From Clostridia bacterium (GTDB lineage: Bacteria > Bacillota > Clostridia > Oscillospirales > Butyricicoccaceae), in the NCBI GenBank assembly GCA_029099685.1, contig JAQXOO010000015.1, positions 1 to 64,000 on the forward strand: DNA of 64,000 nucleotides. Direction: 5' to 3'. The stretch's first letter is position 1. Each line of letters starts with the position of its first letter. Under the pieces are notes generated by a model that worked only from the letters and a program-made list of their open reading frames with translations, made no database searches and was not told where the DNA came from. The position numbers were made by a program, and so were the translations under genes. This document shows positions 1 through 50,900 of this stretch, piece after piece.

Positions 1-3000
1 GGTAATGCCGTTCTCAGCGGCCCACAGAACTGCGTTGGCGTAGTAAGCGTCAGCCGCCACGTCGGTGAAGGGATTCACGCTGTCGGAGGCGGGGGCCTTC
101 TGGCTGCGCCACAGGAAGGTGACGATCTGGGCGCGGGTGCATTTCGCGTTGGGGGTAAAGGTGGTGTCGCTGGTACCCGTGGTGATGCCGTTCTCGACCG
201 CCCACAAGACCGCATCGTAGTAGTAGCTCCCCTTGGCCACATCCTTGAAGGGCATTTCGCTGCTCTTGGGAGCGGGGCTGCCGGCAGCGCGCCACAGGAA
301 GGTCACGGCCTGCGCGCGGGTGCAGGGCGCGTTGGGTGCGAAGTGGGTATCATCCACGCCGCCGGTGATGCCGTTTTCAGCGGCCCACAGCACCGCGTCA
401 TAGTAATAATCGCCGGGGAACACATCCACGAAGAAGTTCAGCATGGAATTGTCCTCCATGAAGGTGGCCTTGACGGTGACCTTGCTTCCGGGCATTTTGA
501 AGGTGAACTTGCCGTCGCCCTTGTGGGTCAGCTCGATCTCGTTGCCGCTCTTGTCGGTGACGGTCAGGGTCTCCAGCGTGTAGCCCTTGTCGGGCGCAAC
601 GGTCAGGGTAACGGTCTCGCCCTTCGACGCGGTTTCAGGGCTGACGGTTATACTGCCATTCGCGGCATTGCCGATTGAAATCATTTTGCTTGGCGTGTGG
701 CCGTCGCAGTCCGGAGATGGAGTATCATCCTCAACGTCCTCATCCTCAACGTCCTCATCCTCAACGTCCTCATCCTCAGTGTCAGGCGTGTTGTTGGTGG
801 AAAGCAGCTCGTCGCTGGCCTCCGTCGCAGTCTCTCCCAAGTTGGCACCCCAGGCAGACACATACTCGCCGTCATCGATGTAGTAAAGGACCACAACGCT
901 CTCCGGCGTCATTGCACCGGACGTGATCACCGTATCGGGCGCAATCGGCATGCCGTCAAATTCCTGACTTCCGAGGGAATTGCCGGCTTCGTCCAGATAT
1001 TCGATCTCCGCGTCCATGGTCCCTGCGCCGGTGCCGCGGATATCCAGCACATAGTCCTCAGAATAGTCCAGCGTGAAAACGATGCCATCATCAACCCGCT
1101 CCACCGTGCCAAAGGGGCGCTCAAAAGGACCGTACTCACTGTCAAGGATAAAGCCGTTCAGCGTAACAGAAGCTTCCACAGGACAATTTATGCGGATGAT
1201 CGTCTTACTCGCTTTTTGGGTTTCCCGAACTTTCTTCCACGTTTTTGCTGTACCCTCAAAATAGGATCCGCCGTTGGTATCGTCAACGTAGTTGATCGAA
1301 TTCTTCAGCGAATCGTAACTCCTGTACTCTAATAAAAGACTGTGGTTGGTCTTGCTGACGTTTTTTCCTCCGCCATAGCTGATGCAATAAATTCCTTTTC
1401 CATCGTCTCTCTCTCCGAGAAATACGATCGAGTGGCCGAACAATCGGATTTCCTCTCCAGGATCAGCCCATTTGCGGATAAACTCTTTGACTTTTTCAAC
1501 GGATCTCTTATCACTGAATTTGTTGAATTTTTGTGCCTTTCCGGTACGACCGTAAGTGTACTGTTCGCAGAATTGCGCATATGCCATGCATCCGCCGCAT
1601 CCGTGCTGCAGCTTAATAGGGCCAAACACGGAATCTTTGATGATTTTATCTTTATATTTCTGCGTTTTGTTAGCCTGATCGATGTTCTGGATCGTAAAGT
1701 TTTTATTTAGGTCCACTGAACCCGTAAATATGGCCTTCTCAGTGTTTGCAAATTTACGATTCTTATTGATTCCCGTCGGTCTGAACTGTGCCTTGAAGAT
1801 CAGGTTATAGATCGCATTCTCAATATTCTCCCGGGAATCGGCATCTGCGTTTTTCAGAGCGTCTTTCGTAACGCGTTTAACGAACCGCAGATTGTTGGAT
1901 GCCTCATCGATCTTGATCGTATAGTTCCGCCGCGCGGCTGACGCACCGGGAACCTGGTTTGTAACCTGCACAGTAAATGTAAATGTACCGGCCTTCTTGG
2001 GTTTTCCGGTGATCTCGCCGGTTTCGCTGTTCATCGTCAGCCCATCCGGCAGCTTCCCAGAGGTGATACTCCATGTGAAGGGAACTGTCCCGGTCACCTT
2101 TATGGTATCCTTATAGGCCATACCGATCTCACTATCCAGCAGAGAATCCGTTGTGATGCCGGGCGCAGTCCCGGGCAGCGACGCAGACGGCCCCTTATAA
2201 CCGCATATCTTGCATTCCTGATGTTGTTTTCCCGGGTTTGCGCCGAAGGGCTCCTCATCCGGATACCACTCGAGAACGTGTACGCCCACATTCTCCACCG
2301 CATAACAGCCGGCATGCTTGCACCCAAACCAGTGTCCGCGGTCAAAAAGCGTTTCCCAATACCACTGCCACTGATGCATACCCAGACGAACATACGGGGT
2401 AGTGGTCGGGTCAAACGCCCATGTCGATTCCCGCTGTGCAGATGCTTCATTCGCGCCGGCGAAGATCTCCTCCGGAACATTCAGCGGCGCTTGGCTGAAC
2501 GCGGCGGGTTTGCCGATGACCGTCAGCGAGGCAGACGGGTTTGCAATCTGGATTGTCAGATTTTTCGCCTCGATGGCGATGCCGTCCTGTTTCCTCATTG
2601 TTATGCTTGATTCAATGCGCAGCGTCAAGTGATCCAGCTCCGATTTCAGCATCGGCGTAGTGCCCGCAGTGCCAAAACTGTTGCCATTCGCCCGCAGCGT
2701 CAGCGTGTTGGTCTTCGGATCAAAACTTGCTTCGCCCTTGCCCTTGCCCAGAATATCTGCCTTGTTGGCTTCCGTCACCTTTGTGCCGAAAAACCAGAGG
2801 GCATAGCTTTCATCCTCAGGTGGCGGAGTGGGAGTGGAGGGTTCCGGGCTGATATTCCATACGCAGTCATCGCTCGGCGTGACGGAAAGATCCTTTCCGC
2901 TGGCAAGAATTTTGCCGGAGATGGTCATCGTCACCTGACCGTGATACGGCGTGCATCCCCTGCCCTGAATACGCACAGCCATCATCCGGTCGTTTTGAGT

Positions 3001-4065
3001 CAGGGACTTTTCATTGACCAGATAGAATTCTCCGTCTGCAGGCGTATCCAGAAGCAGGTAGTTCGTCAGGTCGGTTCCGGCGGGGAGTGTGCCGTTCTCG
3101 GCGTCATATCCGTTGATCTGACTGAGGTCGAAGGAATCGCCCGTCAGATCAAGGTCAATACTTGCATTGATTGCGCGGTGTCCTTCGCCAGAAATCACGC
3201 CGGAGAGCGAAGCGGAGCGTGCCGTTGTCCCATCCGTATTGAATACAGCACTTGCCGCAGACCAGCTAGAACTTTGAACTGTGCTGATATCCCGGCTTAA
3301 TGCCGCAACTTTGAAGGTAAATTGGTCGAAATGGGAATCCTCCAGCCATGATTTTATATCCGCGCTGCATTCAGTGCTGTAAACAAGCTGAATCAGATTG
3401 CTGCTATTTACGTCAGATACTACAATGCCGTAGGCCGCAATCTGGGATGTATTGCTGCCTGGCTGTGTCCAACTGAGCACTCCATCCGTATAGCTCAAAT
3501 TTATCGGTGCTAAAAGCTTTTGGGAGGGCTGGGTATAGTGCCAGATATCAGATTCTGCTACTGCACTGTCCAACAGGTTATCAAAGTCATCGCCTGATGA
3601 GTTTCTCAGTTCCTCACTGATTATATATTGCACTGTGAAATAGTAGTCTCCGCTTTTCAGATGACCGGCGTTTGAAGTGCTATCGTCGTATTCATTGAAT
3701 ATTAACTCACTGACGATAGGCGTGCTTTCAATGCTACGGTATTTAGGCCACATAATAACAGTACCATCAGCAACAAATTCGTCTGAACCAGCAGGTGCGT
3801 CCGCTTTTCGGTACAGCTTATATTTTGCTTCGATAGCATAGTTTCCGATGACTTCAATTAGGTCTTCACCGTTCCATGTGCAGATTTCAGGCAAATAAAA
3901 GCCGGAATCGGTGTCATAGAACGACCATACGTCATTAGAATATCCGCCCCATTTCAGTCCGGTTGGGGTGGGAAGTGGTTCAGCAGTATTCGCCAGCGTC
4001 TGAACCGGCAAAATTCCCGCCAGCATCACAACGCACAACAGCAAAGAAACCATTCGTTTTCGCAT
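1..4065 (-). CDS. Secreted SLH-domain surface protein, C-terminus beyond window; contains putative-Ig (He_PIG-like) region and a cysteine-protease-like segment
   Basis: Open minus frame from ATG at 4063-4065 with signal peptide MRKRMVSLLLCVVMLAGILPVQTLA; C-terminal SLH repeats read in lines 1-450 (e.g. NPFTDVAADAYYANAVLWAAENGIT); EDEDV acidic repeat; HGCGGCMAYAQFCEQ...GHSIVFLGE motif. ORF runs off the left edge, so it is not in the ORF track. Confidence 0.85.
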   Translation of the reverse strand, partial: MRKRMVSLLLCVVMLAGILPVQTLANTAEPLPTPTGLKWGGYSNDVWSFYDTDSGFYLPEICTWNGEDLIEVIGNYAIEAKYKLYRKADAPAGSDEFVADGTVIMWPKYRSIESTPIVSELIFNEYDDSTSNAGHLKSGDYYFTVQYIISEELRNSSGDDFDNLLDSAVAESDIWHYTQPSQKLLAPINLSYTDGVLSWTQPGSNTSQIAAYGIVVSDVNSSNLIQLVYSTECSADIKSWLEDSHFDQFTFKVAALSRDISTVQSSSWSAASAVFNTDGTTARSASLSGVISGEGHRAINASIDLDLTGDSFDLSQINGYDAENGTLPAGTDLTNYLLLDTPADGEFYLVNEKSLTQNDRMMAVRIQGRGCTPYHGQVTMTISGKILASGKDLSVTPSDDCVWNISPEPSTPTPPPEDESYALWFFGTKVTEANKADILGKGKGEASFDPKTNTLTLRANGNSFGTAGTTPMLKSELDHLTLRIESSITMRKQDGIAIEAKNLTIQIANPSASLTVIGKPAAFSQAPLNVPEEIFAGANEASAQRESTWAFDPTTTPYVRLGMHQWQWYWETLFDRGHWFGCKHAGCYAVENVGVHVLEWYPDEEPFGANPGKQHQECKICGYKGPSASLPGTAPGITTDSLLDSEIGMAYKDTIKVTGTVPFTWSITSGKLPDGLTMNSETGEITGKPKKAGTFTFTVQVTNQVPGASAARRNYTIKIDEASNNLRFVKRVTKDALKNADADSRENIENAIYNLIFKAQFRPTGINKNRKFANTEKAIFTGSVDLNKNFTIQNIDQANKTQKYKDKIIKDSVFGPIKLQHGCGGCMAYAQFCEQYTYGRTGKAQKFNKFSDKRSVEKVKEFIRKWADPGEEIRLFGHSIVFLGERDDGKGIYCISYGGGKNVSKTNHSLLLEYRSYDSLKNSINYVDDTNGGSYFEGTAKTWKKVRETQKASKTIIRINCPVEASVTLNGFILDSEYGPFERPFGTVERVDDGIVFTLDYSEDYVLDIRGTGAGTMDAEIEYLDEAGNSLGSQEFDGMPIAPDTVITSGAMTPESVVVLYYIDDGEYVSAWGANLGETATEASDELLSTNNTPDTEDEDVEDEDVEDEDVEDDTPSPDCDGHTPSKMISIGNAANGSITVSPETASKGETVTLTVAPDKGYTLETLTVTDKSGNEIELTHKGDGKFTFKMPGSKVTVKATFMEDNSMLNFFVDVFPGDYYYDAVLWAAENGITGGVDDTHFAPNAPCTRAQAVTFLWRAAGSPAPKSSEMPFKDVAKGSYYYDAVLWAVENGITTGTSDTTFTPNAKCTRAQIVTFLWRSQKAPASDSVNPFTDVAADAYYANAVLWAAENGIT
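729..779 (-). repeat. 15-bp in-frame tandem repeat encoding EDEDV acidic linker
   Basis: cctcaacgtcctcat unit repeated about 3.3 times; translates to EDEDVEDEDVEDEDVEDD in the SLH protein frame. Confidence 0.85.
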
Positions 4066-5563: not shown

Positions 5564-6264
5564 TTCCGATCGCCGTCTGCGATGATGAACGGATACACGG
5601 TCTGCGGACCAGAGAGGTCATTCTCAGCCACGGCGGGGTACGGGATCCCGTGGTCCAACTCTTCGAAACGCCGGACGCTCTGTTGGACGCCATCCGCCTG
5701 CGGGATTACTGCCCCCGGGTGGCCGTGCTGGACATCCGGATGGAGGGTACCGACGGGATCCGGCTGGCGGAACAGATCAACGACCTGTTGCCCCAGTGCG
5801 CCGTGATTTTCCTGACCGCGTTTTTGGAATACGCCACCGATGTCTACGAGACGCGGCATGTCTATTTTATTCTGAAAAACGAGCTGGAGCAGCGGATCGG
5901 CAGCGCACTGGAAAAGGCGCTTGACGGGACGGGGATGCCCCCGCACCTGCATCTGTCTTCCGGTTCTTCCGTCAAAAGCATTCTGCTTCGGGATGTCCTC
6001 TATCTGGAGCGGATCCTGCACAAGACAAGGGTTCGGATGGGTAATGGCACAGAGATGGTGGCCGCGCCTCCTGCCGAACTGCTGAAAGACGTGAGGGAAG
6101 GCACTTTTATCCGCTGCCACCAAAGCTATTGGGTCAACTACGAACATATCAACGCCATGGAAAAAAATGAGTTCGTGCTGTCCGACGGGACGCGGATCCC
6201 GATCAGCCGCACCTTTCGCGACAGCGCAAAGGCTGCGTTTTTCTCCGATATGCGCACGCGTTGA
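5560..6264 (+). CDS. LytTR-family response regulator (receiver + LytTR DNA-binding domain)
   Basis: VCDDE, VLDIRMEGTDG receiver motifs; C-terminal LYLERILHKTRVRM...FIRCHQSYWVN LytTR pattern; ATGA overlap with kinase. Confidence 0.92.
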   Translation: MIPIAVCDDERIHGLRTREVILSHGGVRDPVVQLFETPDALLDAIRLRDYCPRVAVLDIRMEGTDGIRLAEQINDLLPQCAVIFLTAFLEYATDVYETRHVYFILKNELEQRIGSALEKALDGTGMPPHLHLSSGSSVKSILLRDVLYLERILHKTRVRMGNGTEMVAAPPAELLKDVREGTFIRCHQSYWVNYEHINAMEKNEFVLSDGTRIPISRTFRDSAKAAFFSDMRTR

Positions 6265-6461
6265 TTTCCGCAAATGCCGTACAGGAGCTGCCTAAGGATG
6301 TTCCTCTCCAACTTCGGCATTGACTATGACGCGATCGCCAAGGAACAATTTGTAAACCTGATTGAGGTCTTGAACCTGTCCAAACATAAGAAAACCCCAC
6401 TATCCAGCGGGGCAAGGCAAGTCTCCAACAGACCCGCGGAAAAGGAAAACGCGAATAAGCG

Positions 6462-6511
6462 GAAAACACGCCATACGCAGCCTTTGAAGCTGAATATGGC
6501 GTGTTTTTTCA
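6462..6511 (+). terminator. Intrinsic terminator
   Basis: aaaacacgccata...tatggcgtgttttttc inverted repeat with T run. Confidence 0.7.
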
Positions 6512-6603
6512 TTGATCAATCGATGCTCATTTCGCGCTGTTGCGCTAACACTGCCTGACGAACACCTGCCATTGGGTGGCTTTTTGCTTGGTTCCGCGCC
6601 TTT

Positions 6604-7740
6604 TCAATACAGCCGGTACTGTTCCGCCTGTTCCCGGAAGGCGGCGCAGTCGGCCGCTTGGTCCCGGAGCAGCGTGTCCGCGCTCCAGTCCGGCTCCTCC
6701 AGGTCCCGCCGGCCCGCCAGCAGGGAAAGAAAGCACGTTCCGCCTGCTGTCTGGGGCGGCAGAACGGAAAAGGTCCCTGGAAACGCCGTCCTTGCCAGCT
6801 CCACCAGGCGGAATCCCAGCTCCACCGGCCGGATGCTGTGCCCGTCGGTAACGTGCAGATGCACGCCGCCGCAGACTTCGCCCCGGTGCTTGGAGGCCGT
6901 GGGCACAAAATACACCGGCGTGCTCTCCACCCCGGGCAAGCCCAGGGCGTTAAAAGCCCGGGACAGCCCTTCGGCGTCCACGCCGGGCGCGCCCACCATG
7001 GCAAAGGGGTCCGCCGTGCCCCGGCCCTCGGACCAGGAAGTGCCCTCAAACAGGCAGGTGCCGGGATAGAGCAGCGCCGTCTCGAACCGGGGCATGGCCA
7101 GACTAGGCATCACCCACACCCGCCCCCAGTCATAAAACATCATGGACCGGGTCAGCCCCGCGCAGGGCACCACCTGCAGGTCGCAGCCCAGTCTTTCCTC
7201 TCCGTTGACCATCCGGGCGAACTCGCCGCAGGTCAGGCCGTAGCGCTGGGGCATCTCCCAGCAGCCCACAAAGCTGCGGCATTCCCGCTGCAGCAGGGTG
7301 CCTTCCACCGTCCCGCCCAGGGGATTGCCCCGGTCCAGCACCACCAGGCGCTTGCCCGCTCCGGCGCAGCCGGCCATGGCGTTTCGCAGGGTGGAAATAA
7401 AGGTATAATACCGGCATCCCACGTCCTGAATGTCATAGACCAGCGTGTCGAACCGGTCCAGCGCCTGGAACGAAAGCCCCTTGCCATCTCTGCGGTACAG
7501 GCTCATCATGGGCAGGCCGGAGGGCCCGTCCACGCAGTCGTCAAACAGCTCTCCCGCGCCCTTGTCCCCCCGGACGCCGTGCTCCGGGGCCAGCAGCAAC
7601 TGCAGGTCGCAGACCTCCCGCAGCCGGTCGATGGAACTGCGGTTGTCCGCCGTCCGGCCCGAGGGCGCGGTGATCAGCGCCACCCGCCCCGCCAGCAGCT
7701 CCCGGTATTCCGCCACACGGTCAATGCCGAATAAGATCAT
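6604..7740 (-). CDS. DUF1343 family protein (NamZ-type exo-beta-N-acetylmuramidase family)
   Basis: MILFGIDRVAEYRELLAGRVALIT...LLAPEHGVRGD...DIQDVGCRYYTFISTL...DRGNPLGG...LYPGTCLFEGTSWSEGRGT motifs typical of the family. Confidence 0.88.
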   Translation of the reverse strand: MILFGIDRVAEYRELLAGRVALITAPSGRTADNRSSIDRLREVCDLQLLLAPEHGVRGDKGAGELFDDCVDGPSGLPMMSLYRRDGKGLSFQALDRFDTLVYDIQDVGCRYYTFISTLRNAMAGCAGAGKRLVVLDRGNPLGGTVEGTLLQRECRSFVGCWEMPQRYGLTCGEFARMVNGEERLGCDLQVVPCAGLTRSMMFYDWGRVWVMPSLAMPRFETALLYPGTCLFEGTSWSEGRGTADPFAMVGAPGVDAEGLSRAFNALGLPGVESTPVYFVPTASKHRGEVCGGVHLHVTDGHSIRPVELGFRLVELARTAFPGTFSVLPPQTAGGTCFLSLLAGRRDLEEPDWSADTLLRDQAADCAAFREQAEQYRLY

Positions 7741-10010: not shown

Positions 10011-10775
10011 TCACTGGTTGTTTCCGCCCGTGCTTTCCGCGCCCACATCGGCGCCCAGGTCACAGGTGTAGACCCAGCAAACGGCGTCCCCGTCCTGCAG
10101 CGTGTACTGGCTGCAGCCGTAGTTGGGAAAGACCCCGTTGACACTGTACATCCATCCCGACAGGTCCCCCGCGTCAAAGGCATACAGGTTGCAGATACCC
10201 TCGATATAGGCGCTGTTGTACAGGGGCGTCTGGACGAACTCCAGGTGCAGCTTTTGCTGCTTCATGGTGCGCTGCAGCACGTTGAACACGCTCTCTCCCT
10301 GGGAAAACGCCACCGTGGTGGCGGCCAGCAGCACGCCGTCCCCGGGCACCAGCTCCGCCTTGTCCGGGTCCAGGCTGCTGTTGCCCACCAGGGTGTCGCA
10401 GCGGATCTCCAGGGTGCATTGCAGCTGCGTCTGGGCAGGCGGCGTCTCCGGCTGCTGCGGCTCCGGGGGCTGCTCCGGCTGGGCAGGGGGCGTCTCCTGT
10501 CCCGGCTGCTCCGGCGGCTGCTCCTCCTGCCCCTCCGCCGGGGCGGGCCCGCTTTCCTCCGGCAGCGCTGCGGTGCCGTCCGGGGCAGGGTCCTCCGCCG
10601 TGGCCTGTCCCCCTGTCTGTTCCGGGTCCGCCGGCTGGCTGGGACCGGAGGGCTCCGGGCCTTCCGCCACAGGCTCTGTCAGCGGCGGCCGTTCCGGCCC
10701 GGCCGCCGCGCCGCACCCGGCCAAAAGGCACAGGGCCAGCACACACGCCGTCAGGGCGCTCCAATTTTTTCTCAT
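10011..10775 (-). CDS. DUF4430 (transcobalamin C-terminal-like) lipoprotein
   Basis: Lipobox LCLLAGC; Pro/Glu-rich linker; GESVFNVLQRTM...YIEGICNLYAFDAGDLSGWMYSVNGVFPNYGCSQYTLQDGDAVCWVYTCDLGADVG. Confidence 0.85.
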   Translation of the reverse strand: MRKNWSALTACVLALCLLAGCGAAAGPERPPLTEPVAEGPEPSGPSQPADPEQTGGQATAEDPAPDGTAALPEESGPAPAEGQEEQPPEQPGQETPPAQPEQPPEPQQPETPPAQTQLQCTLEIRCDTLVGNSSLDPDKAELVPGDGVLLAATTVAFSQGESVFNVLQRTMKQQKLHLEFVQTPLYNSAYIEGICNLYAFDAGDLSGWMYSVNGVFPNYGCSQYTLQDGDAVCWVYTCDLGADVGAESTGGNNQ

Positions 10776-10821
10776 ACAAACCTCCCGGCTGACAGCCGTT
10801 TTTCCGTTATTCGATTGCATC

Positions 10822-44065: not shown

Positions 44066-45133
44066 CTAAGCCGACAACCCGCCGCCGGGGGCAGTGAACA
44101 GCCAGCCTTCTTCAAATTGGTCACCCATGGCGTAGGTGTAGGCCTTTTTCACCTGCCAGCCGGTCAGCTCGGGACACAGGTCACCACCGTCAAAGGGCGG
44201 CTCTTCGGTATAGCCGTTGGGCGGTTCGGGCAGCTGACTTTGCAGCGGAAGGTCGCCAAAGCTAACGTAAAGGCCGGGGCAGGTGGGCTTGTGATACTCT
44301 GGATTCTCGGCAGGGCCAACATAATTTGCAGAAAAACTGTCGAGGGTCAGCCTGTCCGACCAGTCGTAGATTTGGCCGGGTTCAAAGTTCCCTTCCAGCT
44401 CCACCAGACAGCCGTCAAACCAAGGGCTGTCATTCACCGAAAGGGTTACGCAGGGGATCTGGGTCAACCGGAAACTGCCCAGCTGATCCGGCAGAAGGAT
44501 TCCCCGAGACGCCAGCAATTCCTGATTGGAAGGATATCGCTGCAATGCGGTGCAGCACCACCACAGGCCGTCCTCCCCCTGGGCCACGGCGTAAAACTTG
44601 CCGGGAGCATCCAGGCCGAAAGCTTCCATTTCGGCATAAAAACTGCTTTCCCGTTGAACCGGGTCTTTGCAAGAGGGCAAAGGGCTTTGGGCGGCGCTGT
44701 AAAACTGTGCCTTTTCATCGGCCTGATACAGTGCCGAAAGGAGGGCAGGCAGGGTTTGTGCGGTATAGGTGCGCTCGGGGGTATAGAGATAAACGCCGTC
44801 GGTGAGCACCTCACGGCCGCCGTCCAGAGAAAAGCGGTAGCGGCCCTTGAGCGGATAATAGCAAGGGGTTATGTTCTGTTCCACCAGCGGTACGTCATCC
44901 ATCAGCGCCCAGAGCTGCTCCAGCACTGTGGGATCGTCGATGGTAAAGTTGTTTTCGTGACTGTTGGGCCAGGAGGTCACCGTGACGGCGGCAGGGGCGG
45001 ACTGAGAGCGTCCGGTCAGCAGCCGGGACAGGGTGTCAGGATACTGCTGTCGCATCATCAGCAGCAGGCACAGTGTGAAGGCGGCAAGCAGGCAAAGAGA
45101 CAGATAAAACCCTTTCCTTTTCATGGTAAACAC
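44066..45133 (-). CDS. TM-anchored protein of unknown function
   Basis: MKRKGFYLSLCLLAAFTLCLLLM signal anchor; no family recognised. Confidence 0.65.
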   Translation of the reverse strand: MFTMKRKGFYLSLCLLAAFTLCLLLMMRQQYPDTLSRLLTGRSQSAPAAVTVTSWPNSHENNFTIDDPTVLEQLWALMDDVPLVEQNITPCYYPLKGRYRFSLDGGREVLTDGVYLYTPERTYTAQTLPALLSALYQADEKAQFYSAAQSPLPSCKDPVQRESSFYAEMEAFGLDAPGKFYAVAQGEDGLWWCCTALQRYPSNQELLASRGILLPDQLGSFRLTQIPCVTLSVNDSPWFDGCLVELEGNFEPGQIYDWSDRLTLDSFSANYVGPAENPEYHKPTCPGLYVSFGDLPLQSQLPEPPNGYTEEPPFDGGDLCPELTGWQVKKAYTYAMGDQFEEGWLFTAPGGGLSA

Positions 45134-45220: not shown

Positions 45221-46303
45221 TCAGGTGGAATATAGGGCCATATAGGCAGAAATCATCATTCGGAGGAATGTTTTATGGTTATTTGAAAGGAAGCCCAGCG
45301 CGTCCGGGTGCGGGATAACGTCCGGGGCGGAAACGGCACCCCGGAAAACCGCCATATCTTCGCAAACGATCTGGCTCCGGACACGGTGCTCACCGTGGAC
45401 GAGATCGGCGGCAAGCTGGTGGTGCGATAAAAAACGAACCGCCCGGCTATTCGTGGTGCTTTTTCTTCTTATTTTCTCTTGTTCTGCTCTCTCTGCTCCC
45501 GCCTGGCCCGCCGTGGCGTTGTCCCCCACATCCTTTCCCAGGTCGCAGGTATAGACCCATTCCACCCGGTCTCCGTCCTGAAGCTGATAGCGGCTGCAGC
45601 CGTAATTGGGGAACCAGCCGTTAACGCAATACATCCATCCGGACAGGCTCCCGCAGTCAAATTCATACAGGTTCCCGATGCCCTCGATATAAGCCGAGTT
45701 GTAAATGGGCGTGTCGGTATACTCCATATGGATGCTGTTTTCCATGCACACCCGCAAAAGCACATCAAAAACACTCTCATTTTCATAAAAAGTCACGGTC
45801 AGCGGCTGCAGGATCCAGCCGTCCGCAGGTACTAGTTCCGTCTTTTCCGGGTCCAGACTGTCCATGTTGTCCAGGATCGCAGCGCAGGATATGGAAAGAA
45901 CGCAGGAACAGGCGGTATCCGTGACCTCCGTGTTCTGGGGCTCCACCGGCTTCGGTTTTCCCTCCGGGACCGGGTCGGTGCGGTAGGCATCCTGCCGGGG
46001 CTTCTGAGCTGAGGACTGCCCGGTGCCGCTTTCTGTGCCGGAGGAATGGACTTCTTCCCCCTCCGGTCCGCTGCTTTCAGGCGGCACATCCCGCGGGTCT
46101 CCATTTTCCTCCGGCGGAGACTGTTCTTTCACACCGCCGGGCCGCTCCGTCGCAGGCGCATCTCCCGTGGTCCCGCTTCCGTCAGTCTGCCGTCCCGGGA
46201 GCGGGGCGGGGACGTCCCCGGCCGCCGGCGCGGCGCAGGCGCCTGCCAGCACGGCCACCAGCAGCACTGCCGCCAGGATGCGGCGCGGATGTTTCTTCCC
46301 CAT
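45221..46303 (-). CDS. DUF4430 (transcobalamin C-terminal-like) lipoprotein with anomalous C-terminal extension
   Basis: Lipobox LVAVLAGAC; ENESVFDVLLRVCMENSIHMEYTDTPIYNSAYIEGIGNLYEFDCGSLSGWMYCVNGWFPNYGCSRYQLQDGDRVEWVYTCDLGKDVG; tail is encoded over the direct repeat and antisense to the clpB copy. Confidence 0.8.
   Translation of the reverse strand: MGKKHPRRILAAVLLVAVLAGACAAPAAGDVPAPLPGRQTDGSGTTGDAPATERPGGVKEQSPPEENGDPRDVPPESSGPEGEEVHSSGTESGTGQSSAQKPRQDAYRTDPVPEGKPKPVEPQNTEVTDTACSCVLSISCAAILDNMDSLDPEKTELVPADGWILQPLTVTFYENESVFDVLLRVCMENSIHMEYTDTPIYNSAYIEGIGNLYEFDCGSLSGWMYCVNGWFPNYGCSRYQLQDGDRVEWVYTCDLGKDVGDNATAGQAGAERAEQEKIRRKSTTNSRAVRFLSHHQLAADLVHGEHRVRSQIVCEDMAVFRGAVSAPDVIPHPDALGFLSNNHKTFLRMMISAYMALYST
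45349..45432 (+). repeat. Partial duplicate of the clpB 3' end
   Basis: Aligns without gaps to 43801-43884 with a 44-nt perfect core tcgcaaacgatctggctccggacacggtgctcaccgtggacgag and ends at the same stop codon. Confidence 0.88.
45455..45510. repeat. 56-bp direct repeat, left copy
   Basis: 51/56 identical to 57593-57648, last 33 nt identical (cttgttctgctctctctgctcccgcctggcccg). Confidence 0.88.
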
Positions 46304-46306
46304 GGT

Positions 46307-47803
46307 TCACTGCCCCCCTGCCAGCGCCAGCAGATTGCAGACCATCTGCGCCACCTCCCAGCGCAGGATGGCCTGTTTGGGCCGGAGAGACCCGGTCCAG
46401 GGCGCTATGCCGCTTCCGCAGCAGTCAGCCAGGGCGGCCCTGGCCCAGGAGGCCGCTTCCCTGCCGTCGGAAAAGCCCGCCAGCACCGCTTCCGGGTCCG
46501 CCGCACCGGTATCCAGCTTCAGGCTTTTACAGACGCGGGCCGCCATGACGGCGGCTTCCTGCCGTGTGATGGTGCCGTCCGGGCCGAATTTCCCGCCGCC
46601 GGTGCCGTTAACGATGCCCGCGGCACTGGCAGCCCCCACATAGCCGGCATACCACGCCCCGGCGGGGACGTCGGAATAGCCCTCCGCCGCCTTGGGCGCA
46701 AGGCCCAGGGCCTTGACCACCGTGGCGCAGAACTCCGCCCGGGTCATGGTCCGGTCCGGGGCAAAGGTGCCGTCGCCCATACCGTTGAGGATGCCCCGGG
46801 CCGCCAGCGTCTCAATGGCGGCCTGGTTGGGATGTCCCTGAATGTCGGAAAATGCCCCGCCTCCGGCGGGCGTGTCCGCCCCGGCCATGCGGTACAGGGA
46901 GCACATTCCCCGGGCGGCCCGCCGGGCCGCCACCAGAGCGTAAAAACCCTGTTCGGTGGACATGCCGTCCGCGCCGCTGCCGCCCCCTGCCACATGGGTG
47001 AATCCGCTGCCCCGGACATAGAAGGTCATCAGGCCGTCCAGGGCCGTGCAGCCGTTCTTCACAAAGCGGCCGTCCTCCGGGGGAATACCCAGTTCACACA
47101 GGGCCACCACCACCTGGGCGCAGGATTCGCAGTTGGCGGTGCCGTACACCGAAAAGGTGCCGTCGCCGTTCTGACTTGCAGAAAGCCAGGCCAGCGCCCG
47201 CTGGGTGGCCGCCTGCACGGCGGGCTGCTCCTGGTATTTGGCCAGAGCCTGCAGCGCCATGGCGGTGACATCGGTGTCGGGGGCATCGCTGTCCAGAGAC
47301 CAGCCGCCCCCGGCGATCTCACTGTCCAGAATGCAGTCTACATACCGCTGCCGGACGGCGCATGGGTAGCTGCCGCTGTCCAGAGCCAGCAGGGCAAAAA
47401 TGGGTCCGTTGACCCCTTGCCATACGGTTTTGTCATAATCGTTCAGGGGTGCGGTCAGATCATAGCCGCCCACATCGGTGGGGTCCTTTCCTATGGCGGT
47501 GAGCGCCAGGACCACCCGGGAATATTCGGTGTATTTGCGGCTGTGGAGCACCCCGCCGCAAGCCTTTACATAGGCAACCACCCGGTCATAATACCCCTCG
47601 GGTACCGGATATCCGCCCCGGGCCAGCCCCAGGACGGCCCATTCGCCGCCGATGGAGCCCACCTGGGGTTCAGGGGTGACCTTTTGGATATAGGCGGCGG
47701 TGTCCTCCACCGCGTCGGAAAGGGAGCCGGCAGAGGCCGGGACCATCAGGCAGAGGCACAAAAGCATCGCCAGGCCAAAGGCCCCCGTTCTGCGTCTGTT
47801 CAT
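46307..47803 (-). CDS. Secreted alpha/alpha-toroid (squalene cyclase/prenyltransferase-repeat-like) + SLH protein
   Basis: Signal peptide; WAVLGLARGGYPVPEGYYDRVVAYV...AGGGWSLDSDAPDTDVTAMALQALAKY...AWLSASQNGDGTFSVYGTANCESCAQVVVALCELG toroid repeats; SLH: AFSDIQGHPNQAAIETLAARGILNGMGDGTFAPDRTMTRAEF. Confidence 0.85.
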   Translation of the reverse strand: MNRRRTGAFGLAMLLCLCLMVPASAGSLSDAVEDTAAYIQKVTPEPQVGSIGGEWAVLGLARGGYPVPEGYYDRVVAYVKACGGVLHSRKYTEYSRVVLALTAIGKDPTDVGGYDLTAPLNDYDKTVWQGVNGPIFALLALDSGSYPCAVRQRYVDCILDSEIAGGGWSLDSDAPDTDVTAMALQALAKYQEQPAVQAATQRALAWLSASQNGDGTFSVYGTANCESCAQVVVALCELGIPPEDGRFVKNGCTALDGLMTFYVRGSGFTHVAGGGSGADGMSTEQGFYALVAARRAARGMCSLYRMAGADTPAGGGAFSDIQGHPNQAAIETLAARGILNGMGDGTFAPDRTMTRAEFCATVVKALGLAPKAAEGYSDVPAGAWYAGYVGAASAAGIVNGTGGGKFGPDGTITRQEAAVMAARVCKSLKLDTGAADPEAVLAGFSDGREAASWARAALADCCGSGIAPWTGSLRPKQAILRWEVAQMVCNLLALAGGQ

Positions 47804-47844
47804 GGGAAAACCTCCTTGCGGAACATATTCTGAATACTGCAAAT

Positions 47845-47872
47845 GCCAGACCCGGATGGCTCCGGGTCTGGC
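47845..47872. other. Intergenic hairpin between giant gene and toroid-SLH gene
   Basis: gccagacccggatggctccgggtctggc inverted repeat, no clear T run on the minus strand. Confidence 0.55.
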
Positions 47873-47907
47873 TGCTGTTCAGGCGGGCATTCCGCCTGCG
47901 CGTTGGA

Positions 47908-50900
47908 TCAGTCCGCGTTCACCACGTCCACTGCGAAGCGGTGCAGGATGGCTGCCACCTCCGCGCGGGTCGCGGTGCCTTTGGGTGCGATGGTGGTGAG
48001 GGTTCGGCCGGTGACCAGGCCCCGGGCATTGGCCCACCGCAGGGCAGGCAGGGCATATGCCGATACTTCCCCGCTGTCCGTATAGCCGGAAAGGCTGCCG
48101 GCGTCCGCGGTGTCATAGCCCTTATAGGCGGCGTAGCGGTACAGGATGGCCGCCATCTGCTCCCGGGTGATGCTGTCTCCGGTGCCGAACAAGCCGTTTC
48201 CGTAGCCGTTGACGATCCTGTACTGGGAAGCCCAGGTCACCGCGTCGGTGTACCACTGTCCGGGCAGAACGTCGGCATATTCGGCGCTGCCGGAGACCGC
48301 CGGCCGGCCCTCCAGCCGGTACAGCACCGTGACCAGCATGGCGCGGGTCATGGGCGTGCCGGGCGAAAACAGGGTTTCGGTGGTGCCGTTGAACAGGCCC
48401 GCTCCGGTGACATACCGGACGTCCTCGTAATACCAGTTTGCTTCGCTGACATCCAGGAAGCCCGTCCGGATGCTCTCGCCGGGCTGCTGGGTGGCGCCGC
48501 TGCTGTCCAGGCCGGCGGCATATGTTTCCGGCGTGATGTCCGGGGCCTCCAGCCACCGCCGGTAATAGACGCTGGAGCTGCTGCGCTCCTCCAGGGTATA
48601 GTCATCCACATAGTGCCAGATGATCTCGTCGCCGTCCTTGAGGACATAGTCCTGGAGGCCCACGTCGGGATGCCTGCCGTTTACGGTATACATCCAGCCG
48701 GAGTTTTTGCCGTTGTAAAACTCTGCCAGCCAGTAGCCGCCCAGCACAGCGGGCGCCCGGATGGCGGAAACATAATTGCTGTCCGCGCCCCGCTGGCTCA
48801 GGCTGTAATCGCCGATGGCCGCCAGGAACACGTCGTAAACCGTATCGCCCTTGGCGATCTCATAGGTGGTGGTCTTGATCCAGGTGACATACCCGTCATG
48901 GTCCCGGACGCCGCCGTCATGGACGGTGTCGCCGATCAGACGGAAGGTGACCTCCAGGAGGTCTCTGCGGAGGGGGATCTCCTCCATGGCCTCCAGGGCA
49001 CTGTCCAGCGCCTTTTCGATCTCCTCGGTGCAGGGGGCCCGCCGGATGGCCGTGCGGCCCTTGCTGTATTCTGCCTTCAGGCCGCTCCAGCCGGCGGCGG
49101 CATAGTCGTCCTGGTCATAGGTTTCATATGCGCTTTCCAGTTCGTCCAGCGCCCGCTGGATGGCTTTGTCCAGCAGGGTGTCAAACTGCTCCCGCGCCTG
49201 GGCCAGCTTGTTTGCGTTGGGGACCTGGGCCTTCTGGCTGTCAGAGAGCTGCGCGTACAGCGCTTCCGCTTCCTCCAGGGCCTTCAGGGACGCCCGGTCC
49301 GCCTTTCGGATGCTCAGCCGGTCGATGGCCTCGGCCGCCGCGCCGGCGGGATCCGCCGCCAGACGGAAGGAGGCCTCCAGGACAACGTCGCTGCCGGGCA
49401 TGGTGAAGCTGGCCGTGCCCTCGGTCACGGACAGGGCCGTGCCGTTCACGGTCAGGCTCACCAGCTCATAACCTGCGGCGGGTGCCGCGGTCACGGTGAT
49501 CTCCGTGCCGGCAGGTGCCCGGAAGGCGCTGGGCGTCACGGTGCCGTTGACCGCCGTGACCGTGATGGTGTGGCTGACTGCCGTGTCGGACATGTCATAC
49601 AGGCTGCTCTTTCCCTCTTTCAGGCGGAACCAGGAAGCCAGCGCATAGAAGGACTGCTCGGTAGCCATCTGGTTATAGCTGCCGCTTGCACTGTGCCGGA
49701 AGCCGTTTTTGCTGCCCTCTGCATAGAAAGCGCGCAGGCCGTCCAGCAGGGTTTTGCTGTTTTTGGTGAATCCGGCGTCGGAGCCCGGGTCGCGGCCCAG
49801 CCCGGTCAGGGCAACGATCACCTGGGCGGTGTTTTCGGCCGAAGCGTTCTGCCCTTTGGGCTTGATCTGGCCTTCCCCGTTCATCAGTCCGGCCAGATAA
49901 TCCAGCGCCTTGTCCACAGCGGCCTTCACGCCGTTATCGGTCTGGTAATAGGGCGCCAGCGCCTGCACCGCCATGGCGGTGGTATCGCAGTCGGCGTCGC
50001 CCGAGGTGATGTACCAGCCGCCGTTTTCCAGCTGCTTATCCAGCAGGCTCCGGACCAGGGCGTCCTTGTTTTCCGCCTCATAGCCGGCGGCGTTGATGGC
50101 CAGCAGGGCAAAGGCCGTGCTGTTGTTGCCCTGGCCGGTGACCCAGGCGGTGTCCTCCAGCGCCTTCATCAGGTCCATTCCCTTGTAGGCGGCGGGATCG
50201 TTGCCCAGCGCCCGCAGCGTCAGGGCGATGCGTTCATTCTCGGTGGGCCGGGTCTCGCTGAGGACGCCGGTCTCCGCGTTATAGTTTTCTTCCAGATAGG
50301 CGTCCAGCGCTCCGTAATAGGCCTCCAGCATGGTCTCCGGGATGGCCTGTCCGCCGCGCGCCAGGCCCAGCATCATCCACTCGCCCCGCTGGGAGCCGGT
50401 GGTGACGTCGGTTGCCAGCAGGGTCCGGGCCGTCTTCTCATAGATCTCCCGCAGGGCCGCAAGCTGCGCCTGTTCCTGTTCCAGTCCGGCCAGTGCCGCC
50501 TCGGCGGCGGTCAGATCCGCATAATTCTCCACCAGCGCCTTCTGGCCTTCGGTCAGCCCGTTATAGGCCGCTCTGGCCGCGCTGATGGCGTCCGCGCTTT
50601 CCGTGGTGACCGGCGTGCCGATGGCATTGATCAGGGCTTCAACCGCATCCGCGGCCTCCCGGTCGGGATCAGGCAGGCCGGTGCCGGTTTCCACCGTGAA
50701 CCCGCTGAACCACGCCCGGTCGCTGCCGCCGGCGGCGGAGCTGTCCTTCGCAAAGGCAAAGGTAAAGGTATAGGTGCCGGCCTCCAGCGTCCGTGCAAAG
50801 GAACCGTCTACGGTACCGCTGATGCCGCCGGCGACCGGTTCATCGCCCAGAGAGATCGTCAGCTTATCATAATCACGCTCCGAGGACACGCCGTAGGCAA

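Follow-up and report, generated by a model that had tools for sequence, protein, structure and literature searches.

The DNA analysed here, called the window, is a stretch of 64,000 nucleotides from a Clostridia bacterium (contig JAQXOO010000015.1), and the gene under study lies on its minus strand and encodes a toroid protein with SLH repeats (toroid-SLH; Table 1). The gene starts at an ATG at position 47803, preceded by an AAGGAGG ribosome site, and stops at 46307. A signal peptide can be recognized in the sequence of its product and is followed by an alpha6/alpha6 toroid that was modelled with AlphaFold2 from an alignment of 79 sequences, and by the three SLH repeats of SLH cell-wall proteins, recognized by both Pfam and HMM; besides SLH, Pfam reports a weak SQHop_cyclase_C stretch. 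Downstream, 3 bp separate the stop of this gene from the start of a gene for a DUF4430 lipoprotein. Upstream, across a gap of 104 bp, lies the gene for a giant surface protein, whose own toroid shares 41-43% identity with the stand-alone toroid. A sequence-only reading of the window had described toroid-SLH and DUF4430 halves encoded as separate adjacent genes, with spacings of 4-100 bp. The open reading frames and their coordinates hold, the domains are confirmed by Pfam and the toroid by AlphaFold2, and the earlier observation is thereby confirmed.

Table 1. Features of the locus and of its paralogue in the window, from high to low coordinates
Feature	Position	Strand	Evidence and remarks
Promoter-like site, TTGACT-16/18-TATATT/TATTAT	57450..57479	-	Consensus scan, 10/12; pattern match alone
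Cobalamin riboswitch aptamer, RF00174	57234..57368	-	39.7 bits (gathering 31.5), E 1.5e-6 in window
Intrinsic terminator	57134..57161	-	12-bp stem + TTATTTTTTT; between riboswitch and first gene
Giant surface protein	47908..56799	-	2,963 aa; DUF4430 - PQQ propeller - ... - toroid - DUF4430 - SLHx3 (Pfam, own HMMs)
Strong RNA hairpin, giant/toroid-SLH gap	47839..47875	-	Folding z -5.6 for 47822-47910; no U-tract
Toroid-SLH protein	46307..47803	-	498 aa, signal peptide; putative alpha-domain half of clamp, cell-wall anchor
Three SLH repeats	46334..46852	-	Cell-wall anchoring; Pfam SLH 1.6e-31; repeats by HMM
Alpha6/alpha6 toroid domain (modelled residues)	46850..47734	-	AlphaFold2 pLDDT 94.3, pTM 0.92
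DUF4430 lipoprotein	45221..46303	-	Lipobox LAGAC; Pfam DUF4430 5.3e-18; putative membrane-tethered beta-domain half
DUF4430 (transcobalamin-like beta-grasp) domain	45548..45778	-	69.4 bits
Probable non-native C-terminal tail of lipoprotein ORF	45221..45502	-	Homology end near residue 266; antisense clpB overlap
clpB 3'-end remnant, rearrangement scar	45349..45447	+	blastn 85% over 99 bp, E 9e-28; tblastn 22/26
Second, unlinked DUF4430 lipoprotein	10011..10820	-	269 aa; paralogue of the 45221-46303 lipoprotein, 44-49% identity

At the head of the operon lies a cobalamin riboswitch, which the earlier reading overlooked, as it did the conserved ECF operon of relatives and the same-slot fusion described below. 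The aptamer scores above the gathering threshold of its family, as in a cobalamin riboswitch regulon, and lies on the same strand as the operon, 435 bp before the start of the giant gene, which is the first gene; its alignment retains the GCCAUUGG and AGCCAGAAGA motifs. The intrinsic terminator that follows is likely the expression platform of the riboswitch, and the order of promoter-like site, riboswitch and terminator would correspond to the usual layout for a transcription stop at plentiful corrinoid. Because a cobalamin riboswitch with a terminator heads the operon, the toroid-SLH and DUF4430 pair would be produced when corrinoid is scarce. The RNA hairpin in the gap that separates the giant gene from the toroid-SLH gene is a possible site of processing or of a partial stop, and the genes on its two sides may differ in expression level.

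The product of the DUF4430 gene carries a lipobox and resembles the secreted, surface-tethered DUF4430/SLBB domain proteins of Burroughs et al. (2007). A simple pattern finds a lipobox in 15 of 93 orthologous DUF4430 proteins, and because most orthologues begin with a transmembrane-like segment in its place, the constant feature of the family appears to be membrane tethering rather than lipidation. Of the 360 residues of the lipoprotein, those up to about 266 are homologous to its paralogue, and the final ~93 codons run antisense through a remnant of the 3' end of clpB that includes the terminator, with the intact clpB about 1.5 kb away. Since homology is lost near residue 266 and the frame overlaps the antisense remnant, this C-terminal tail is unlikely to be native. 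The remnant and a 355-aa ORF occupy the slot that holds EcfT and EcfAA'S in relatives, and in the window no ECF genes follow the lipoprotein gene. This ORF (44066-45133, minus strand) has no Pfam match and ends at an in-frame stop, although about 44 more codons could be read beyond it in the same frame; it is possibly a broken gene.

Homologous loci were collected by a profile search of genome contigs, which gave 80 loci from Clostridia and Paenibacillus; the profile consisted mainly of stand-alone toroids, and the loci, as its best matches, form a biased sample of bacterial toroids. A few of them come from genomes that are also in the family set considered below. Testable loci, in which the toroid gene stands alone and sufficient DNA lies downstream of it, number 73; of these, 70 have a DUF4430 gene directly after the toroid gene and 3 lack this downstream partner. 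The median distance between the two genes is about 12 bp, and several pairs overlap by 4 bp. The pair is in turn followed by EcfT, of the CbiQ family, and then by a fused EcfA-A'-S protein, which combines two ECF ATPases and an ECF S component, in 56 of 67 testable loci. Burroughs et al. (2007; PMC1796856) described secreted DUF4430/SLBB domains of bacteria, which are frequently joined to alpha/alpha toroids; the operons carry CbiO/CbiQ-like genes and also encode a second extracellular SLBB protein. The authors predicted a role in B12 scavenging and noted that key B12 synthesis genes are usually missing in such bacteria. The 56 homologous loci have such transporter genes, and the window locus has the clpB remnant in their place. 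Stand-alone toroids that lack SLH repeats are found at L083, L084, L142, L154, L160 and L164, where they still adjoin a DUF4430 gene.

The identity of the S component was checked for three copies, which match chain 6fnp_A with E values of 5.5e-10 (Paenibacillus), 3.7e-15 (the copy on contig C1 of this genome) and 3.5e-11 (a genome of the same genus). PDB entry 6FNP is ECF-CbrT, a transporter of cobalamin and cobinamide (PMC5997447). Furthermore, cobalamin riboswitches were found at 24 of 35 scanned loci, which had been chosen for their upstream DNA; all 31 matches lie on the toroid strand, where about 0.4-0.7 would be expected from background density. In Paenibacillus loci L120, L123 and L132 and also in L108, L126, L147 and L164, the pair comes immediately after the riboswitch, without an intervening giant gene. 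With this order in Paenibacillus and several Clostridia, the pair rather than the giant is the conserved core, and the giant is an optional, fused member of the operon. The idea of a split receptor encoded alongside a fused giant version must be modified in this respect: the giant does contain a toroid, two DUF4430 domains and SLH repeats, but it is dispensable to the arrangement. At L111, from a Butyricicoccus sp., a tandem pair of cobalamin riboswitches (6139-6669) lies upstream of the toroid-SLH pair.

Co-occurrence across genomes, which had been proposed as a check on the pairing, agrees with the adjacency of the two genes. Among 87 family genomes, the toroid is present in 23 and DUF4430 in 25, and all 23 toroid genomes have DUF4430 (Fisher 5e-19, an overstated value, since related genomes are not independent). 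Natural fusions of the two halves also exist. In L088 (genome G068), a 607-aa toroid+DUF4430 fusion occupies the same operon slot, just before EcfT and EcfAA'S, and L089 (G082) contains another such fusion, which is led by a riboswitch. In addition, a second toroid-SLH protein (G000:C1, G075, G077 and G078) and an unlinked second DUF4430 lipoprotein are found in the same four of nine genus genomes. The trees of these second copies have the same branching, and the clade of the second lipoprotein in the window matches that of the second toroid-SLH on contig C1. Shared descent alone could explain the matching trees, and the matched paralogues are taken as supporting evidence only.

The rest of this genome contains one ECF set of the operon's type, on contig C1. 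There (L092, 951-6095), the second toroid-SLH gene is followed by EcfT and by EcfAA'S with a CbrT-like S component; no DUF4430 gene lies between toroid-SLH and EcfT, and no riboswitch scores above threshold in this copy. The window pair, if active in uptake in this organism, would have to use the C1 ECF copy or another importer. The organism also retains corrinoid synthesis genes besides those for uptake: on contig C13 (L012), two riboswitches accompany a cluster with CbiG, CbiF, CbiD, CbiC, CbiA and a BtuCD-like importer. Because riboswitch-led cbi genes and this importer are present, the organism may not depend on uptake. Contig C21 (L011) encodes a 419-aa protein with an N-terminal DUF4430 domain and three SLH repeats (1638-2897, minus strand), with a riboswitch at 2976-3165, and relatives in the same genus have a similar riboswitch/DUF4430-SLH arrangement.

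The DUF4430 sequence profile reached human transcobalamin with an E value no better than 0.36, below repeat-driven false matches, and the toroid profile found no B12 carriers, its matches being cyclases, prenyltransferases and alpha-2-macroglobulin-type toroids. Because sequence profiles gave no usable match to B12 carriers, comparison by fold was chosen. The natural fusion modelled was that of L162, a compact protein with a 37-residue linker (pLDDT 89.5, modelled without ligand). The 15 best PDB matches of this fusion are to transcobalamin, intrinsic factor and haptocorrin (E 5e-12 to 3e-9), and its beta domain aligns with that of human transcobalamin (5no0) at a TM score of 0.78. Each domain of the model aligns to the carriers, but the two are placed relative to each other otherwise than in the closed carriers, and the rmsd across both domains is about 24 A. 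The window pair has the toroid and the beta-grasp DUF4430 domain of the transcobalamin/intrinsic-factor type, encoded by two genes; the one-polypeptide form is found only in relatives (L088 and L089) and in the giant.

The best reading of these observations, and one that we consider probable, is that the two proteins form a two-piece corrinoid clamp that feeds a CbrT-type ECF importer. This reading is based on the domains, the anchors, the riboswitch, the ECF operon of relatives, the co-occurrence, the fusions and the fold similarity to B12 carriers. The linkage of the pair to corrinoids is strong. Numerous related bacteria of gut and soil have the pair beside a B12 importer, which makes it a probable B12 receptor in two pieces, the halves of which would assemble physically. 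The two genes would then encode the two halves of a clamp that is a single protein in animals (transcobalamin, intrinsic factor). The toroid half would be held in the cell wall through its SLH repeats and the DUF4430 half at the membrane by its lipid anchor, or by a transmembrane helix in most relatives. A separate beta half can bind, since the isolated beta domain of transcobalamin has been solved in a B12-bound structure (5np4). Corrinoid would be captured between the halves, with DUF4430 probably binding first and the toroid then closing as a lid, and the loaded complex would hand the corrinoid to the CbrT-type S component of the ECF importer, in this organism presumably that of the copy on contig C1. 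The split two-protein receptor put forward from the sequence alone is therefore upheld in part: co-occurrence, adjacency, the L088 fusion, the riboswitches and the CbrT-type ECF neighbours favour it, and the L162 model, which is not closed, does not.

A different arrangement, which we judge unlikely, is that both proteins act in corrinoid uptake without pairing with one another. The DUF4430 protein would capture corrinoid alone near the membrane, and the toroid-SLH protein would pair with DUF4430 of the giant or serve as a wall-bound store. The giant in the same operon does have DUF4430 domains to offer, but the pair occurs without an adjacent giant in Paenibacillus and others. The three loci with a toroid but no downstream DUF4430 gene also fit this arrangement, as do G000:C1, G075, G078 and G079, where toroid-SLH abuts EcfT with no DUF4430 gene between. 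The B12-bound structure of the isolated transcobalamin beta domain (5np4) fits it as well. Pairing is nevertheless favoured by the same-slot fusion of L088 together with the matched unlinked paralogues.

An enzymatic role for the toroid-SLH protein, as an extracellular terpene cyclase/prenyltransferase-like or corrinoid-modifying enzyme rather than a binding half, is very improbable. Such a role is suggested by the toroid alone, which by both sequence and fold best matches class II terpene cyclases and the beta subunits of prenyltransferases. The fold search with this domain returned terpene cyclases, prenyltransferases and rat transcobalamin (8ixt), the last at rank 38 with cyclases and prenyltransferases above it, and the toroid alone is a generic alpha/alpha toroid, structurally no closer to transcobalamin than to these enzymes. 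The cyclase DxDD motif is partly retained, reading D-x-D-[ILVM]-T in the 79 aligned orthologues (a few have E or Q first), but its last Asp is absent in 79 of 79, with I, V, L or M instead. Because the motif is incomplete across all of these orthologues, cyclase catalysis by the toroid is unlikely, and with the corrinoid context this led us to drop an enzyme as the main reading of the toroid. The protein is moreover secreted and wall-anchored, far from isoprenoid diphosphates, and the riboswitch and ECF-CbrT context indicate corrinoid. Least probable of all is that the system serves a ligand of another kind, for example cobalt, heme or some other cofactor. In its favour, EcfT falls within CbiQ, a Pfam family of cobalt transport, and DUF4430 is a divergent ligand-binding family (PMC1796856); against it, the S component matches CbrT, whose transport hemin does not compete (PMC5997447), CbiM-type cobalt uptake genes form a separate set in L153, and the fused forms match B12 carriers by fold.

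The corrinoid clamp may have a wider meaning, in that a two-protein, wall- and membrane-anchored clamp widespread in Gram-positive bacteria could be both a dedicated receptor for the ECF B12 importer and a split counterpart of the animal intrinsic-factor/transcobalamin fold; we give this broader proposal an even chance. The fused bacterial forms and the link to B12 scavenging had already been predicted in 2007 (Burroughs et al., PMC1796856). What appears to be new is that the halves are encoded side by side and differ in their anchors, that a riboswitch is linked to them, that the transporter is identified with CbrT and that a fusion occurs in the same slot; a search limited to open-licence papers found no description of the split wall/membrane-anchored pair. 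Microbes of gut and soil compete for corrinoids, and how these are captured at the Gram-positive surface is poorly known. The pair is a concrete and widespread candidate for this capture in Oscillospiraceae, other Clostridia and Paenibacillus; through it, the 2007 prediction on transcobalamin-like proteins of bacteria can be tested on two small soluble proteins, and it bears on the origin of animal B12 carriers.

Corrinoid capture by a surface lipoprotein, as proposed here, is familiar from BtuG/BtuB of Bacteroides, a system of unrelated fold in a Gram-negative outer-membrane setting. To our knowledge, ECF-type transporters are generally regarded as independent of an external binding protein. 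ECF-CbrT (6FNP; PMC5997447), which the operon resembles in the S component of its fused EcfA-A'-S, works as described without an extracellular capture protein, whereas the operons of relatives encode dedicated surface proteins beside the importer. The available part of Burroughs et al. (2007; PMC1796856) has no toroid split off as a neighbouring gene, no SLH anchoring, no riboswitch and no CbrT-type S component, and unlike the bacteria treated there, the genome of the window has several cbi genes. Relative to the animal carriers, sequence similarity is undetectable in the toroid and the closed arrangement is absent from the fusion model. Animal transcobalamin, intrinsic factor and haptocorrin nonetheless share with the bacterial system the combination of an alpha6/alpha6 toroid and a beta-grasp DUF4430 domain, and unlike those carriers, the bacterial halves are separate proteins, one SLH-anchored and the other lipid-anchored.
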